DNA of 64,000 nt from Glutamicibacter sp. JL.03c (lineage in GTDB: Bacteria; Actinomycetota; Actinomycetes; Actinomycetales; Micrococcaceae): assembly GCF_025854375.1 (NCBI RefSeq), contig NZ_CP107575.1:1922001-1986000 (forward strand), in the 5' to 3' direction. A program made the position numbers and the translations under genes. Below the pieces are notes generated by a model, which had not been told where the DNA came from, ran no database searches, and worked only from the letters and a program-made list of their open reading frames with translations. This document shows, in pieces, positions 22,415 to 29,927 of the stretch (the first letter of the stretch is position 1; every line of letters begins with the position of its first letter).

Positions 22415-22909
22415 ATGGATCTGTCACGGCATGAGTATCACATCAGTTTGGAGTGGACAGGCAACCGGGGCACGGGGACCGACAGCTACCGTGGTTACGG
22501 TCGGGACCACGTGGTGCGTTCCACTGGATTGCCGGATCTACCGGGCACCGCTGATCCCACCTTCCATGGCGACAAAGATCGCTGGAACCCGGAGCAGCTA
22601 TTGCTTGCGGCACTGAGCCAGTGCCATATGCTGTCCTATCTGCATTTGGCAGTGAACCACGGACTCACAGTAAACGGCTACCGCGATTCAGCCGATGGTC
22701 TGCTCCGGCTGAACCGCGACAATAGCGGAGAGTTCGTTCAGGTGGTTCTGCATCCTTCTGTAAGCTTGGCGGACGAAACCCAACGTGAGCTTGCCGACTC
22801 TCTTCATGCAGAGGCGAACAAGGTATGCTTCATCGCCAGATCCGTGAACTTCCCAGTCCTTCATGAACCAGTCCTTCCGAATCATTCCCGAGGAAACAAT
22901 AATGAGTGA
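22415..22909 (+). CDS. OsmC/Ohr family peroxiredoxin-like protein
   Basis: Thiol-dependent peroxidase fold, likely reducing organic hydroperoxides. The 164-residue protein has both redox cysteines of the family: SQCHMLSYL (near residue 69) and NKVCFIARSVNFPV (near 137). It belongs to the OsmC rather than the Ohr branch by the N-terminal half, but the substrate is not certain. Its TGA overlaps the start of the truncated haemoglobin gene by 8 bases, so the two are translationally coupled. Confidence 0.88.
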   Translation: MDLSRHEYHISLEWTGNRGTGTDSYRGYGRDHVVRSTGLPDLPGTADPTFHGDKDRWNPEQLLLAALSQCHMLSYLHLAVNHGLTVNGYRDSADGLLRLNRDNSGEFVQVVLHPSVSLADETQRELADSLHAEANKVCFIARSVNFPVLHEPVLPNHSRGNNNE

Positions 22910-23402
22910 ACACCCGCAGATCCCGCATAGCGTCAGGCAGGATCCGTTCAGCAAGCCTCTCGTCCTGGGCCCATCCAGCCAAGAATTCCTGGATCTTGCC
23001 AATGAGCCGGTCGATGCATCGCAGTACCCGGGGACGTTTTACCACGAGGTTGGCGGCCGTGAAGTCTTCGCGAAGCTGACTAAGAACTTTTATGATTCAG
23101 TCGCCGAGGACCAGGATTTTCGCGCCATGTACCCGGAAAAGGACCTTCACCCGGCACAAGTCAGGCTGCAATTATTTCTTGAGCAGTACTGGGGCGGACC
23201 AACTACCTATTCAGAGCATCGCGGCCACCCCAGGCTGCGGATGCGGCACGGCAACTTCACCGTGAATTCGCACTACCGCGACGTATGGCTTGGCCATATG
23301 AACAAGGCCATCGATCAGCTGGAGCTTCCACCGCTGCAGGCCGAAACCCTCAGGGATTATTTCGAGCGTGCGGCTCATTCCATGCTCAATACCCCGGATT
23401 AA
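22902..23402 (+). CDS. glbO: Truncated haemoglobin, group II (GlbO-like)
   Basis: Small haem protein for oxygen/NO/peroxide chemistry. From the ATG at 22902 (GAGGAAAC nine bases upstream) it has 166 residues. Group II features: FYDSVAEDQDF near the N-terminus, YWGGPTTYSE (CD1/E region), LRMRHGNF (proximal His in F8 region) and a conserved Trp in DVWLGHM (G8). The family in mycobacteria and Streptomyces is usually about 130 residues; here there is an N-terminal extension of about 35 residues. Coupled to the OsmC-family gene, suggesting a joint oxidant/NO role. Confidence 0.9.
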   Translation: MSEHPQIPHSVRQDPFSKPLVLGPSSQEFLDLANEPVDASQYPGTFYHEVGGREVFAKLTKNFYDSVAEDQDFRAMYPEKDLHPAQVRLQLFLEQYWGGPTTYSEHRGHPRLRMRHGNFTVNSHYRDVWLGHMNKAIDQLELPPLQAETLRDYFERAAHSMLNTPD

Positions 23403-25219: not shown

Positions 25220-26956
25220 CTAAATTTCTAGCTCGATGGGTTCCGCTGGAACAGATACGCATGTCAGTACCTGTCCAGCGGAAACCGAAGCACTGGGTTC
25301 CATCGGGTAGGTCACACTCCCCTTGAGCAGCCTGACAGAACACTGGCCACACGATCCGGCCCGGCAAAGGCTTGGCGCATCTACGCCTGCGGATTCGAGG
25401 GCCTCCAACAACACTCCATCTTCTGGCTTCCAAGTAAATTCAGTTCCAGAATCTCGGCAACTGACTTCTGCGGCAGGCAGATCCTTGAAAAGCTGCGCAA
25501 GGTCAGTTTGTGGAGAGGCGAACATCTCACTATGGATATTCTCGGGCGGTATTCCTAGCGCAGCGCACAAGTCATTCACTGACCGGGTGAATCCTTCAGG
25601 TCCGCAAATAACGACGCTGTCACAGGCCTCGACAACGCTGGCGATTTCTTCGCTAGTCGGACGCCTTATCGAACTGTCGTAATGATGGTGCCGTACTTTG
25701 GCGCTCAGTGGTTCCGAAACTTGCACCGCGCGATCGCTCAGTTGGCTCGGCAGGCCTCGTTCAACATGCAACATGCGAAGCTCTTCAACAAGCGAGGCAT
25801 TTTCGCAGTCGCGAAGCAATCCGAGCACCGGAGTGATTCCAATACCCGCGGTGACTAAAGCGGTTTTCCGACGCAGAACATTGGCTGCGGTAGTCGTGCC
25901 ATATGGTCCTGAAACCAGGAGCTCGTCCCCCGCGCGCAGCGTTGCCAGTCGTTGAGAGACAGAGCCCTGTACCCTCACTGCAATCTTCACTGCTCCGTTT
26001 GCCACGGAGGTAATCGTGTAGTTGCGCCACAAGGGATCAGCGAAATGAACGCGTAGGTATTTCCCGGCTTCGTCGTGCTCGCTAAACCAATTGAACGCAT
26101 CACTAAGGGTGAGTTCTACGATTTCTGAACCATGATGAACAGCATCCAGTACGGTGGCAAACCGCGGAGAACGTTTGGAGGGAACGAGATGCTTTTCCTC
26201 GGCGCTCATATCGCCAACCTCGATGGAGGACCCAACACTCAGCGTGCCAGAAGCAAGAACAGTGCCATAGATGCCGCAATGCAGGTGCCCAAAATGTGTT
26301 GCCAATAGTCGAGGTCCATTTGTATCAACCTCGGTGGTGTCCGGATTCACCGATGTGGCTGAGCACCGCTCGATGGATTTCGTGATGGCAATTTTCACGT
26401 CCCCTATCCGCAAGACTTTGCCAATCAAACCGAACTCGGCAAATGCCGGCAGCCCTTCAATAAGGATGTTGCCACGATACCGACGTGGGTCGAGGTCAAT
26501 CTTCCCTGCTTTGGAAAGTTGCTTGACCGTATTTGGATTGATCAGGGAAATCCCGGACAGCTGAGAATCAAACATGCCCCCTGGCGTTGAGACCACTTCA
26601 CGTCGGTGAGATCCTTGTGTTGGTAGATGCGAGGAAAGATATTCTCTCAACTCGATGCGTCCGTCCGGATGCGAAGAGTCGAAGGTCAGCGAATCATTCG
26701 AGGTCGCACCAGGAGCCGAAACAGTAATCATCGGTGGCTCTGACTTCACAGACCACTTTTGCAAGCTCTTGTCGTTCTTCAGGATAGTGAAGCCTAGGCA
26801 GCTGCTCCATTCACCGTCGGAGACGTCAACCGTGCCGTTGGAAAAAGCCACGCTTCGATCGCCAAGCAGTCCGCCGCCTTCGTGAACCGGCGCTGACTCG
26901 ATTGATTCTCCAGGCAAGCCTTTGACGGGGAAACGGAACAACTGATCGATTCTCAT
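25220..26956 (-). CDS. MOSC - flavin reductase - 2Fe-2S ferredoxin fusion protein
   Basis: A 578-residue protein with four parts. Residues 1-110 form the MOSC N-terminal barrel; about 115-245 the MOSC domain, with the conserved Cys198 (IERCSATSV) expected to bind molybdenum cofactor. About 265-490 is a phthalate-dioxygenase-reductase-type module with flavin motif RNYT (311-314), NAD motif AGIGITPV (370-377) and CGPEG (451-455). Residues 495-578 are a plant-type 2Fe-2S ferredoxin with C531-x4-C536-x2-C539 and C566. E. coli YcbX has MOSC_N-MOSC-Fer2 only; here the electron-donating reductase is built in. By analogy with YcbX/YiiM it may reduce N-hydroxylated compounds. It follows soxR by 83 bases, same strand. 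Confidence 0.88.
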   Translation of the reverse strand: MRIDQLFRFPVKGLPGESIESAPVHEGGGLLGDRSVAFSNGTVDVSDGEWSSCLGFTILKNDKSLQKWSVKSEPPMITVSAPGATSNDSLTFDSSHPDGRIELREYLSSHLPTQGSHRREVVSTPGGMFDSQLSGISLINPNTVKQLSKAGKIDLDPRRYRGNILIEGLPAFAEFGLIGKVLRIGDVKIAITKSIERCSATSVNPDTTEVDTNGPRLLATHFGHLHCGIYGTVLASGTLSVGSSIEVGDMSAEEKHLVPSKRSPRFATVLDAVHHGSEIVELTLSDAFNWFSEHDEAGKYLRVHFADPLWRNYTITSVANGAVKIAVRVQGSVSQRLATLRAGDELLVSGPYGTTTAANVLRRKTALVTAGIGITPVLGLLRDCENASLVEELRMLHVERGLPSQLSDRAVQVSEPLSAKVRHHHYDSSIRRPTSEEIASVVEACDSVVICGPEGFTRSVNDLCAALGIPPENIHSEMFASPQTDLAQLFKDLPAAEVSCRDSGTEFTWKPEDGVLLEALESAGVDAPSLCRAGSCGQCSVRLLKGSVTYPMEPSASVSAGQVLTCVSVPAEPIELEI

Positions 26957-27039
26957 GTTCCAAGTCTAGTTACGGATGTCTACCGCAAACGACAAGATGA
27001 ACGGCTAGGCCTGGATTCTTTCATAACTAATCACCAGGC

Positions 27040-27534
27040 CTATTCACTTGATTCATCAGAGTCAAGGCGTCTCGCGCCGGCGCCCTGTCGGGAGAGCCGG
27101 TCATCCGGATTCAGAAGGTTGCACGCCTGCATCGAGAGGCAGCCGCAACCGATGCAGCCCATGAGTCGATCTTCCAGCTCTTCGATTGCTCGTCGACGAG
27201 CTTCTAGGACGAGTTTCCAATGTGCGGTAGCTCGAAGCCAGTCCTCCTCGGACGGCAAGCGATCCATTGGAACCGGAGCCAGAGCCTCCTTAATATCGCT
27301 AAGCGCAATGCCCAATTGCCTGCCTACGGTGATCAATGAAATTCGGCGAAGCAAGTGCCTAGGATAACGACGCTGGTTTCCTGATGTCCGCAGAGAGGCG
27401 ATGAGTCCAAGCTCTTCATAATAGTGAAGTGCAGAACGTGCGACCCCTGTACGTTCGCTGACTTGGCCAATAGACAGGAGTTCCTCTGCGGGTTTTTCCT
27501 GTGGCTTTTCGGCATCGTTTGATATGCGAATCAT
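27040..27534 (-). CDS. soxR: Redox-sensing transcriptional activator SoxR
   Basis: MerR-family sensor of redox-cycling compounds with a 2Fe-2S cluster. The 164-residue protein has the N-terminal winged HTH (LLSIGQVSERTGVARSAL), a dimerisation helix, and the cluster motif CIGCGCLSMQAC (C127, C130, C132, C138: C-x2-C-x-C-x5-C). Start ATG at 27534 is preferred because GGAGG lies 7 bases upstream; the frame extends to a TTG at 27558. The SoxR box at 27553-27570 lies just upstream, in the divergent promoter region. The C-terminal tail after the cluster is longer than in E. coli (154 residues total). Confidence 0.95.
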   Translation of the reverse strand: MIRISNDAEKPQEKPAEELLSIGQVSERTGVARSALHYYEELGLIASLRTSGNQRRYPRHLLRRISLITVGRQLGIALSDIKEALAPVPMDRLPSEEDWLRATAHWKLVLEARRRAIEELEDRLMGCIGCGCLSMQACNLLNPDDRLSRQGAGARRLDSDESSE

Positions 27535-27548
27535 CACTCTCCCTCCGC

Positions 27549-27579
27549 TTGACCTCAAGTTCGCTTGAAGTCTTAGTGT
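27549..27579 (+). promoter_or_regulatory. SoxR box within a 19-bp-spacer promoter
   Basis: The 18-bp dyad CCTCAAGTTCGCTTGAAG at 27553-27570 closely resembles the E. coli soxS operator. It is placed between a -35 element TTGACC (27549-27554) and a -10 element TAGTGT (27574-27579), separated by exactly 19 bp. An overlong spacer with the dyad inside is the hallmark of MerR/SoxR-activated promoters. The promoter reads rightward to the flavin reductase gene. Confidence 0.85.
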
Positions 27580-27670
27580 TGAGGTTATCAGTGTCGTTGG
27601 TGAGAACTGAAGAAACTCTCACATCACCTGCCGGGCTACGTATTTCTGTTCGGCTTGAAGGAGCTATTGG

Positions 27671-28174
27671 ATGAGCCAATTATCAGATGACTTTCGCACC
27701 GCGTTTCGCCATCATCCAGCCGGAGTGGCACTCATTACCGCAACAGTCGACGGACTGCCCTACGGATTGACGATTTCATCTTTGGCTTCCCTGTCAATTG
27801 ATCCAGTGGCCGTTTCGTTTTCACTTGCAAAGGAGTCAGGTGCCGCAGGCGCGGTATTGGCAGCACCAAGTTTCATCATCCATATGCTCTCTGAAGAGCA
27901 TGAAGAACTGGCAAATAATTTCGCTCTGCCAGGTGCGCCGCGATTCACGGAGGACCAGAATTTCCGATTCCTTCCGACCGGCGAGCCCTACTTTGCCGAT
28001 GCCCCAATTGCTTTCAGGTCGACCATTCACTCGTCTATCAGCGTGGGAAGCTCTCGTTTGATTGCTGCCGAAGTCCACGAGATCCTCCACGGGGCTCCAC
28101 AACAGCATCTTGTGCACCAGAACCGGCAATATGTCAGGCTTTCGAGCCTTCTTGCGCCAATTTATCAAGACTGA
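27671..28174 (+). CDS. Flavin reductase-like protein (HpaC/NTAB family), SoxR-regulated
   Basis: A 167-residue flavin reductase domain protein: FRHHPAGVALITA at the N-terminus, GLTISSLASLS and DPVAVSFSLAK form the FMN-binding barrel. Such proteins reduce FMN/FAD with NAD(P)H for a partner monooxygenase or act as flavoenzymes themselves. ATG at 27671 with AAGGAG nine bases upstream. A SoxR-type promoter 90 bases upstream predicts induction by redox-active compounds. A bidirectional terminator follows. Confidence 0.9.
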   Translation: MSQLSDDFRTAFRHHPAGVALITATVDGLPYGLTISSLASLSIDPVAVSFSLAKESGAAGAVLAAPSFIIHMLSEEHEELANNFALPGAPRFTEDQNFRFLPTGEPYFADAPIAFRSTIHSSISVGSSRLIAAEVHEILHGAPQQHLVHQNRQYVRLSSLLAPIYQD

Positions 28175-28200
28175 CTCTACTTTTTGGACTAGTCCTTAAA

Positions 28201-28236
28201 ACAGCGATGGCCGCCAAAATTGGCGGCCATCGCTGT
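28201..28236. terminator. Bidirectional terminator between flavin reductase and ettA
   Basis: A perfect 16-bp stem (28201-28216 with 28221-28236) and 4-base loop AAAT. T-rich sequence follows on both strands, so it serves both convergent genes. Confidence 0.9.
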
Positions 28237-28244
28237 TTCGTTTC

Positions 28245-29927
28245 CTAGTCGCGAGTCAGGCGGCGGTGGGTGACTCGATGCGGCTTCGCAGCATCGACAC
28301 CCAAGCGCTCAATCTTGTTCGCTTCGTAGGACTCGAAGTTGCCCTCGAACCAGTACCAGTTTGACGGGTTTTCTTCTGTGCCCTCATAGGCGAGGATGTG
28401 GGTAGCCACGCGGTCCAGGAACCAACGGTCGTGGGAAACGACGACAGCGCAACCAGGGAAATCAAGTAACGCATTTTCCAGCGAAGACAGGGTTTCAACG
28501 TCCAAGTCATTAGTCGGCTCATCGAGAAGCAAAAGGTTTCCGCCCTGCTTCAACGTCAACGCCAGATTCAAGCGGTTGCGCTCACCACCGGAGAGCACGC
28601 CGGCCTTCTTCTGCTGGTCTGGTCCCTTGAAACCGAACGCGGAGACATAGGCGCGAGAAGGCATTTCAACCTGACCCACGTTGATGTAATCCAGACCGTC
28701 AGAAACAACTTCCCACAACGACTTGTTTGGGTCGATATTTTCACGGTTCTGGTCAACGTAGGAAATCTTTACGGTTTCGCCGATCTTCAGCGAACCGCTA
28801 TCAAGCCCTTCCAAGCCGACGATGGTCTTGAAGAGGGTCGACTTACCAACACCGTTGGGGCCAATAACACCGACGATGCCATTGCGTGGCAACGAGAATG
28901 ACAGTCCGTCAATCAGTACGCGATCGCCGAAGCCCTTCTTCAAGTCGCTAGCTTCAATCACGACCTGGCCCAAACGCGGGCCTGGCGGAATCTGGATCTC
29001 TTCAAAGTCCAGCTTGCGAGTACGCTCTGCTTCCGCAGCCATTTCTTCGTATCGAGCCAGACGTGCCTTGGACTTGGTCTGGCGGCCCTTGGCGTTGGAA
29101 CGAACCCATTCGAGCTCTTCAGCCAGTCGCTTAGCAAGCTTCTGGTCCTTCTTGCCCTGTACCTCCATACGTTCGCGCTTCTTCTCCAGATAGGTGGAGT
29201 AGTTGCCTTCATATGGGTGCAGGCGACCACGGTCAACTTCACAGATCCACTCGGCGACGTGGTCCAAGAAGTAGCGATCGTGGGTAACTGCGAGGACGGC
29301 GCCTGGGTAGGCAGCAAGGTGCTGTTCCAGCCAAAGTACCGATTCTGCGTCCAAGTGGTTGGTCGGTTCGTCCAGAAGCAGCAAATCCGGCTTCTGGAGC
29401 AACAACTTGCACAACGCTACTCGACGACGTTCACCACCAGAGAGGTGAGTGACCATCTCGTCACCAGGTGGGCAGCGCAAAGCGTCCATAGCCTGTTCAA
29501 GCTGATTGTCGATGTCCCAAGCATCAGCAGCGTCAATGGCTTCCTGAAGCTTGCCCATCTCTTCGAGCAGCGCATCGAAGTCGGCACCTTCTTGGGCCAT
29601 TTCTTCTGAAATCTCGTTAAAGCGAGTGATCTTCTCGTAGATCTCCCCAACGCCCTCTTGGACATTGCCCAGAACGGTCTTTTCCTCGTTCAGTGGTGGC
29701 TCCTGCATCAGGATGCCAACCGAATATCCTGGCGAGAGTCGTGCCTCGCCGTTGGACGGGGTATCGAGACCCGCCATGATCTTCAAGATCGTTGACTTAC
29801 CAGCACCGTTCGGACCTACAACACCAATTTTGGCGCCAGGGAAGAACGACATGCTGACGTTGTCAAGGATGACTTTGTCACCAACGGCCTTGCGAGCCTT
29901 GGTCATCGTATAAATGAATTCCGCCAT
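28245..29927 (-). CDS. ettA: Energy-dependent translational throttle protein EttA (ABC-F)
   Basis: Ribosome-binding ABC-F ATPase that gates translation elongation according to energy state. 560 residues with two ABC domains: Walker A GPNGAGKST (38-46) and signature LSGGERRRVAL in the first, GPNGVGKST and LSGGERNRLNL in the second. Between them lies the basic P-site tRNA interaction linker (EKKRERMEVQGKKDQ and following). Length matches E. coli EttA (555). No transmembrane segments. Monocistronic. Confidence 0.94.
   Translation of the reverse strand: MAEFIYTMTKARKAVGDKVILDNVSMSFFPGAKIGVVGPNGAGKSTILKIMAGLDTPSNGEARLSPGYSVGILMQEPPLNEEKTVLGNVQEGVGEIYEKITRFNEISEEMAQEGADFDALLEEMGKLQEAIDAADAWDIDNQLEQAMDALRCPPGDEMVTHLSGGERRRVALCKLLLQKPDLLLLDEPTNHLDAESVLWLEQHLAAYPGAVLAVTHDRYFLDHVAEWICEVDRGRLHPYEGNYSTYLEKKRERMEVQGKKDQKLAKRLAEELEWVRSNAKGRQTKSKARLARYEEMAAEAERTRKLDFEEIQIPPGPRLGQVVIEASDLKKGFGDRVLIDGLSFSLPRNGIVGVIGPNGVGKSTLFKTIVGLEGLDSGSLKIGETVKISYVDQNRENIDPNKSLWEVVSDGLDYINVGQVEMPSRAYVSAFGFKGPDQQKKAGVLSGGERNRLNLALTLKQGGNLLLLDEPTNDLDVETLSSLENALLDFPGCAVVVSHDRWFLDRVATHILAYEGTEENPSNWYWFEGNFESYEANKIERLGVDAAKPHRVTHRRLTRD

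Follow-up and report, generated by a model that had tools for sequence, protein, structure and literature searches.

The adjoining soxR and flavin reductase genes of Glutamicibacter sp. JL.03c, a soil-type actinobacterium, raise the question of what switches on the reductase, and of whether the same regulator reaches any further in this genome. We discuss it for a window of 64,000 nucleotides, i.e. the whole stretch of DNA analysed, in whose coordinates all positions are given. Read from the sequence, the -35 element TTGACC (27549-27554, + strand) and the -10 element TAGTGT, of the form TANNNT (27574-27579, + strand), are separated by a spacer of exactly 19 bases, TCAAGTTCGCTTGAAGTCT, and within it lies the 18-bp SoxR-box dyad at 27553-27570, which reads CCTCAAGTTCGCTTGAAG, with the arms CCTCAAG and CTTGAAG around TTCG. 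This agrees to the base with a preliminary description of the locus, which had reported an 18-bp dyad in a 19-bp spacer between these two hexamers. According to the available part of PMC9909328, MerR-family promoters have spacers of 19-20 bp and cannot be used by RNA polymerase until the regulator distorts the DNA, and the 19 bp found here fall in this range. The dyad equals the E. coli SoxR box, as quoted in PMC4411124, at 15 of 18 bases. It is imperfect, one arm being CTTGAAG and not CTTGAGG, as is also the case in two other genomes of the genus (G003 and G017), while the dyad of G008 is more degenerate, with two mismatches. The divergent neighbour is soxR itself (27040-27534, - strand), encoding a MerR-family [2Fe-2S] regulator of 164 aa. 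Its product exceeds the curated cut-off of the SoxR model TIGR01950 (176.7 against 116.9 bits) and carries the domains PF13411 (MerR HTH) and PF09278 (MerR-DNA-bind). Among solved structures, E. coli SoxR (2zhg) is the closest, with an E-value of 1.9e-39 over residues 17-161. The cluster motif CX2CXCX5C is present with all four cysteines, CIGCGCLSMQAC, and the string CIGCGCLS occurs in 29 of the 30 soxR loci fetched, L016 being without the exact string. Five more MerR-like regulators of the host genome match the SoxR model, with scores far under its cut-off. On the other side, the predicted target (27671-28174, + strand) is a protein of 167 aa in the Flavin_Reduct family, matching PF01613 with 93.9 bits against a gathering cut-off of 27 and also matching flavin reductases of known structure, though none of the named equivalog models at its cut-off. 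A search of named genomes with it gives 10 loci, five in Glutamicibacter and three in genomes filed as Arthrobacter sp., with 60-83% identity, and two weak matches in other bacteria.

On this anatomy, SoxR control of the flavin reductase is very likely, and we hold with high confidence that the reductase promoter is a one-site SoxR switch. The mode of action may be drawn from the known family by analogy, as far as binding, redox sensing and DNA distortion are concerned. A SoxR dimer would occupy the dyad inside the 19-bp spacer. With the [2Fe-2S] cluster in the reduced state, the excess length of the spacer would hold the -35 and -10 elements out of phase and leave the promoter nearly silent. 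Since the protein has the four-cysteine motif, it would itself be the redox sensor: a redox-active compound oxidising the cluster would make SoxR distort the DNA, bring the two elements into register and let the reductase be made. The enzyme, whose substrate is likewise assigned by family, would then produce reduced flavin with NAD(P)H, or might reduce the redox-active compound directly. The bound dimer may also limit the transcription of soxR, because 18 bp separate the dyad from the start codon of soxR and because of the case of S. maltophilia, but such autorepression is uncertain. In the available text on the soxR-mfsA pair of S. maltophilia (PMC4411124), SoxR binding was tested at a box in a 19-bp spacer that overlies the soxR start site. 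The window resembles this system in having one box in a 19-bp spacer, a divergent soxR, and the box near the soxR start; it differs in the target, which is an MFS efflux pump there and a flavin reductase here, and binding and autorepression, tested in S. maltophilia, are for the window deduced from the likeness. Among actinobacteria, S. coelicolor is described in the part of PMC4146615 at hand as having six SoxR targets: an ABC transporter, oxidoreductases, a monooxygenase, an epimerase and the flavoprotein reductase SCO2478. There too SoxR acts directly on enzymes, including a flavoprotein reductase, together with transporters; however, the six targets are scattered, with soxR constitutive and not autoregulated, whereas the window has one site beside soxR, so that several scattered boxed targets, as expected of a regulon of that type, are not seen. 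The E. coli soxR-soxS pair, with its layout as given in the same S. maltophilia source (PMC4411124), is similar in that the dyad lies between -35 and -10 and soxR is divergent. However, E. coli SoxR switches on the regulator SoxS, while in the window it is the flavin reductase, an enzyme, that stands in the place of soxS. The enzyme of the window presumably belongs to a flavin reductase family other than that of SCO2478.

For the search of further copies, the -35 element, the dyad, the 19-bp spacing and the -10 element were combined into one 31-base pattern, allowing at most 3 mismatches in the own genome and in the genus. In the host genome of 3,586,856 bases it has a single match, and its reversed-letter control has none. 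Within the window alone a short pattern has 2 matches, which is much weaker evidence, as 6 of 100 shuffles reach as many. Across the genus the pattern is found in all 18 of the Glutamicibacter-like genomes at the soxR/flavin reductase pair; of the 19 matches, one lies elsewhere (in G011, with 3 mismatches) and looks like chance, and the control has 1 match in the 18 genomes. All 18 genomes share an identical TTGACC and have a -10 element of the form TANNNT. When the 18 loci are aligned, the block of -35, dyad and -10 is the sole long conserved one while the flanks drift; since the rows were found by the pattern of that very block, it is this contrast that carries the weight. Among 58 relatives, SoxR is found in 28 and the reductase (E <= 1e-25) in 26; the reductase occurs without SoxR in five (G019, G022, G023, G040 and G055), and SoxR without the reductase in seven (G024, G027, G039, G042, G047, G048 and G051). 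This speaks against a fixed pairing and counts against the one-site switch, as do the imperfect dyads of the window and of G008 and the further MerR-like regulators of the genome.

On the family level, the pattern with at most 2 mismatches is present in 134 of 295 genomes, the remaining 161, likewise contrary evidence, being without such a promoter, and none of the matches listed belongs to the control pattern. The arms of the box are CCTCAAG/CTTGAGG in the genus of the window and mostly CCTCAAC/GTTGAGG among the other family matches listed. We read 30 loci out of the 134 matching genomes. A flavin reductase homologue is there in 25, soxR in 27, both in 22, and no locus has neither. In three of them (L070, L072 and L074) the box precedes a reductase with no soxR within the 3-kb locus, and since these reductases are boxed all the same, the box follows the target. 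In 22 of the 30 loci the box lies between soxR and a co-directional reductase, a tandem order unlike the divergent one of the window. Behind other boxes of the family and order, in loci whose proteins were scanned, there are MFS transporters, a zinc-type dehydrogenase, a short-chain dehydrogenase and a glyoxalase-like protein. The SoxR promoters of other genera in the family and order are the same promoter as in the window, often standing before a flavin reductase. The preliminary proposal of a SoxR-type promoter for the reductase therefore gains from both its presence in 18 of 18 genomes of the genus and its recurrence before reductases of other genera.

A further difference lies in the region between promoter and gene. 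In many loci of other genera, an ATG follows the -10 element by 6-7 nt before genes for a flavin reductase or an MFS transporter (L078, L080-L084, L087-L089, L091, L006, L015, L071, L076 and L077), and therefore these messages are probably leaderless, unlike that of the window. Here the reductase mRNA has a predicted 5' leader of 85 nt (27586-27670, + strand), its first base placed from the position of the -10 element. From the start so placed to the start codon, the length is 62-85 nt in the 18 genomes of the genus and 78-85 nt in the 12 leaders that can be aligned. In these 12 of 18, two tandem local hairpins with compensating changes are seen. In the window, hairpin 1 (27600-27622, + strand) pairs GTGAGA at 27600-27605 with TCTCAC at 27617-27622, hairpin 2 (27630-27654, + strand) pairs GCCGGGC at 27630-27636 with GTTCGGC at 27648-27654, and 3 nt past the latter follows the ribosome-binding site AAGGAG (27658-27663, + strand), recognised from sequence and alignment. 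The alignment A1 consists of the 12 leaders; L043, L044, L046, L052, L054 and L058 were excluded because they do not align.

Several measures on A1 speak for the fold. In A1, 72.0% of the cells pair against 63.7% in shuffles, a value that none of 500 shuffles attains, and the true register is better than every slid one, while two of the five measures are no better than shuffles (changes on both sides, 139 of 500 as high; further pair types, 449 of 500). Arms pair better with their own partner than with those of other leaders, with 0 of 20000 permutations as high for hairpin 1 and 1 for hairpin 2; on six dereplicated rows, 1 and 6 of the 720 matchings are as high, the true one included. With a fixed register, simulation along the tree gives a mixed picture for hairpin 1, for which none of 200 simulations is as high at its own place, and 15, 18 and 23 of 200 are as high by three measures when all positions are considered, which is not significant. 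Hairpin 2 is weak in this test: at its own place, 2 of 200 simulations are as high in pairing and 38 of 200 in double changes, and anywhere 174 to 200 of 200 are. A register-free score for local hairpins, chosen after the fixed-register result was known, reaches 212 in its best window against 126 +/- 10, and 419 against 239 +/- 15 for two hairpins, with none of 1000 tree simulations as high in either case. Taken singly, 8 of the 12 aligned leaders have p < 0.05 against their own shuffles; the others are that of the window itself (L041, 0.06), L051 (0.057), L056 (0.15) and L057 (0.71). One of the six unaligned leaders is below 0.05 (L058, 0.015), and L046 has 0.052. In the window, 10 of 65 other upstream stretches score as high as the leader for two hairpins. 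We take the two-hairpin structure as real in the 12 leaders.

The leader might be a cis-regulatory element by which the SoxR switch is supplemented with a second control after transcription, a reading that we consider improbable. It is in favour of it that the compensating changes in the 12 leaders bring the two-hairpin score above all 1000 tree simulations, that both hairpins prefer their own partners, and that the covariance model R1 recovers the leader place only, among the scored candidates (150 of about 950-1370 per genome): it finds the 12 leaders once per genome and nothing else, these 12 matches being so by construction because R1 was built from them. On the opposite side, the leader has few invariant bases, and therefore no obvious ligand pocket. 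An Rfam scan of 27480-27800 returns only NEAT1_2 (14.2 bits against a gathering cut-off of 60, E 0.95). RNAalifold on A1 predicts just 5 pairs of hairpin 1 (-1.63 kcal/mol), and hairpin 2 is not predicted. The fixed-register test, as given above, is mixed for one hairpin and weak for the other. None of the other six genus leaders fits R1, and the leader of the window alone is insignificant (MFE z 0.27; two-hairpin p 0.06). In addition, a plain mRNA-stabilising role would give the same picture, and most simply the leader would serve mRNA stability or keep the ribosome-binding site clear. The more specific idea, that the leader RNA of the genus controls translation or stability of the reductase message by flavin or redox state, is still somewhat more doubtful; if it were true, a transcriptional redox switch would be joined by a second check on the RNA level, which the relatives with leaderless messages would do without. 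The folded leader is the sole unusual part of an otherwise standard SoxR switch.

Returning to the one-site switch, we then ask whether SoxR reaches beyond the reductase. The preliminary description had supposed a concrete regulon and suggested a scan of the genome for promoters with this dyad. The scan, done at the 19-bp spacer, gives the one site mentioned above, so that by sequence the regulon comes down to this single detectable site. The dyad alone, with at most 2 mismatches, matches the own genome 26 times forward and 23 times in reverse and the control 26 and 28 times, i.e. there is no excess. On inspection by eye, the next three dyad sites (L002, L003 and L004) lack suitably spaced -35 and -10 elements around them. 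The search by promoter pattern is blind to sites with another spacer or a poor dyad. With the loose dyad search at control level and the 31-base pattern occurring once, we reject a wider SoxR regulon as a candidate.

The nearest further target would be the gene downstream of soxR, which encodes a fusion of MOSC, FAD-binding and 2Fe-2S parts, according to its domain matches (578 aa; 25220-26956, - strand). That SoxR controls a wider set including this fusion, as a member of the soxR operon, is quite unlikely in our judgement. The arrangement is suggestive in that the two genes share a strand with a gap of 83 nt, and of 47-111 nt in the 10 genomes having the same order. However, among the 18 genomes of the genus it is beside soxR in those 10, elsewhere in 4, and absent (E <= 1e-40) in 4, and in the four genomes with a relocated copy the pattern matches only at the soxR site and not at the fusion. 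Moreover, a -10-like hexamer stands 6 nt ahead of the start codon ATG in each of the 14 copies: in the window TAGACT (26963-26968, - strand), a predicted leaderless promoter; TAGACT or TAGAAT in 10 of the 10 copies adjacent to soxR; TAGAMT in 3 of the 4 relocated copies and TAAACT in the fourth; hence TAGAMT in 13 of 14 and TAAACT in 1 of 14 overall. These hexamers point to a separate, leaderless promoter for the fusion. Between soxR and the fusion gene the window also has a 9-bp hairpin (z -3.27), although the folds of the other nine soxR-MOSC gaps do not show it. The co-regulation of the fusion, tentatively supposed before, is thus not supported, and it was dropped as the main reading on account of the relocated copies without box and the hexamers in 14 of 14. 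The fusion is probably no SoxR target.

Finally, the reading that the dyad is mainly an autoregulatory site of soxR, the reductase having another promoter and just sharing the intergenic region, draws on the 18 bp between dyad and soxR start codon and on S. maltophilia, where autorepression by SoxR acts through a site of this kind (available text of PMC4411124), and is very improbable, as -35 and -10 elements in the direction of the reductase stand at 19-bp spacing in all 18 genus genomes, 22 of the 30 family loci have the box with soxR on one side and a co-directional reductase on the other, the three boxed reductases without soxR in the locus are not explained by autoregulation, and a consensus scan of 26900-28260, covering spacers of 16-18 bp only, gives no other promoter. 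As to soxR itself, its start is the ATG at 27534 with GGAGGG upstream; the list of open reading frames also offers a TTG at 27558, inside the dyad, as a less likely start. The same consensus scan, with its spacers of 16-18 bp, yields 0 promoters for soxR as well; by eye, a candidate extended -10, TGA-TAACCT, can be seen upstream of it on the - strand. The available parts of the literature describe soxR as constitutive and without autoregulation in S. coelicolor (PMC4146615), and as constitutive in S. maltophilia and inducible in some other bacteria (PMC4411124).

Overall, the locus is an ordinary and well-conserved example of a known SoxR switch, and the leader hairpins are its new part. In the SoxR literature on Glutamicibacter, Arthrobacter, Micrococcaceae, Streptomyces and flavin reductase, as far as titles and abstract openings of the entries listed go, none describes the switch. 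The available parts of PMC3534580 and PMC4326396 describe Arthrobacter genomes as having soxR without soxS, with targets merely guessed. The present system, with one regulator, one detectable site and one enzyme in 18 of 18 genomes of the genus searched, is a clean and apparently single-target SoxR system of an actinobacterium, and offers a simple setting for asking about the role of a flavin reductase against redox-active compounds. It bears on whether SoxR outside the antibiotic producers serves as a defence against the compounds of other organisms, which the accessible text of PMC3534580 leaves open for Arthrobacter. A small testable puzzle is also posed by the folded leader in part of the genus, as opposed to several leaderless-looking relatives.

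Some minor observations concern the surroundings. A second, diverged soxR is found in G008, G015 and G012 (L013, L016 and L017), with 42-44% identity to that of the window and a more degenerate dyad. About 400 bases beyond it, L013 has a luciferase-like monooxygenase (Pfam), and L016 has a protein with a similar beginning; this monooxygenase-like protein is a possible user of reduced flavin. In the window, the convergent genes of the flavin reductase and ettA enclose, by eye, an inverted repeat (28201-28236) whose arms of 17 bases match perfectly and which is likely a two-way terminator; the hairpin scan of this place gives only a smaller hairpin (28221-28235) at chance level. About 4 kb from soxR, the gene of an OsmC-like protein overlaps that of a bacterial globin (22415-23402).
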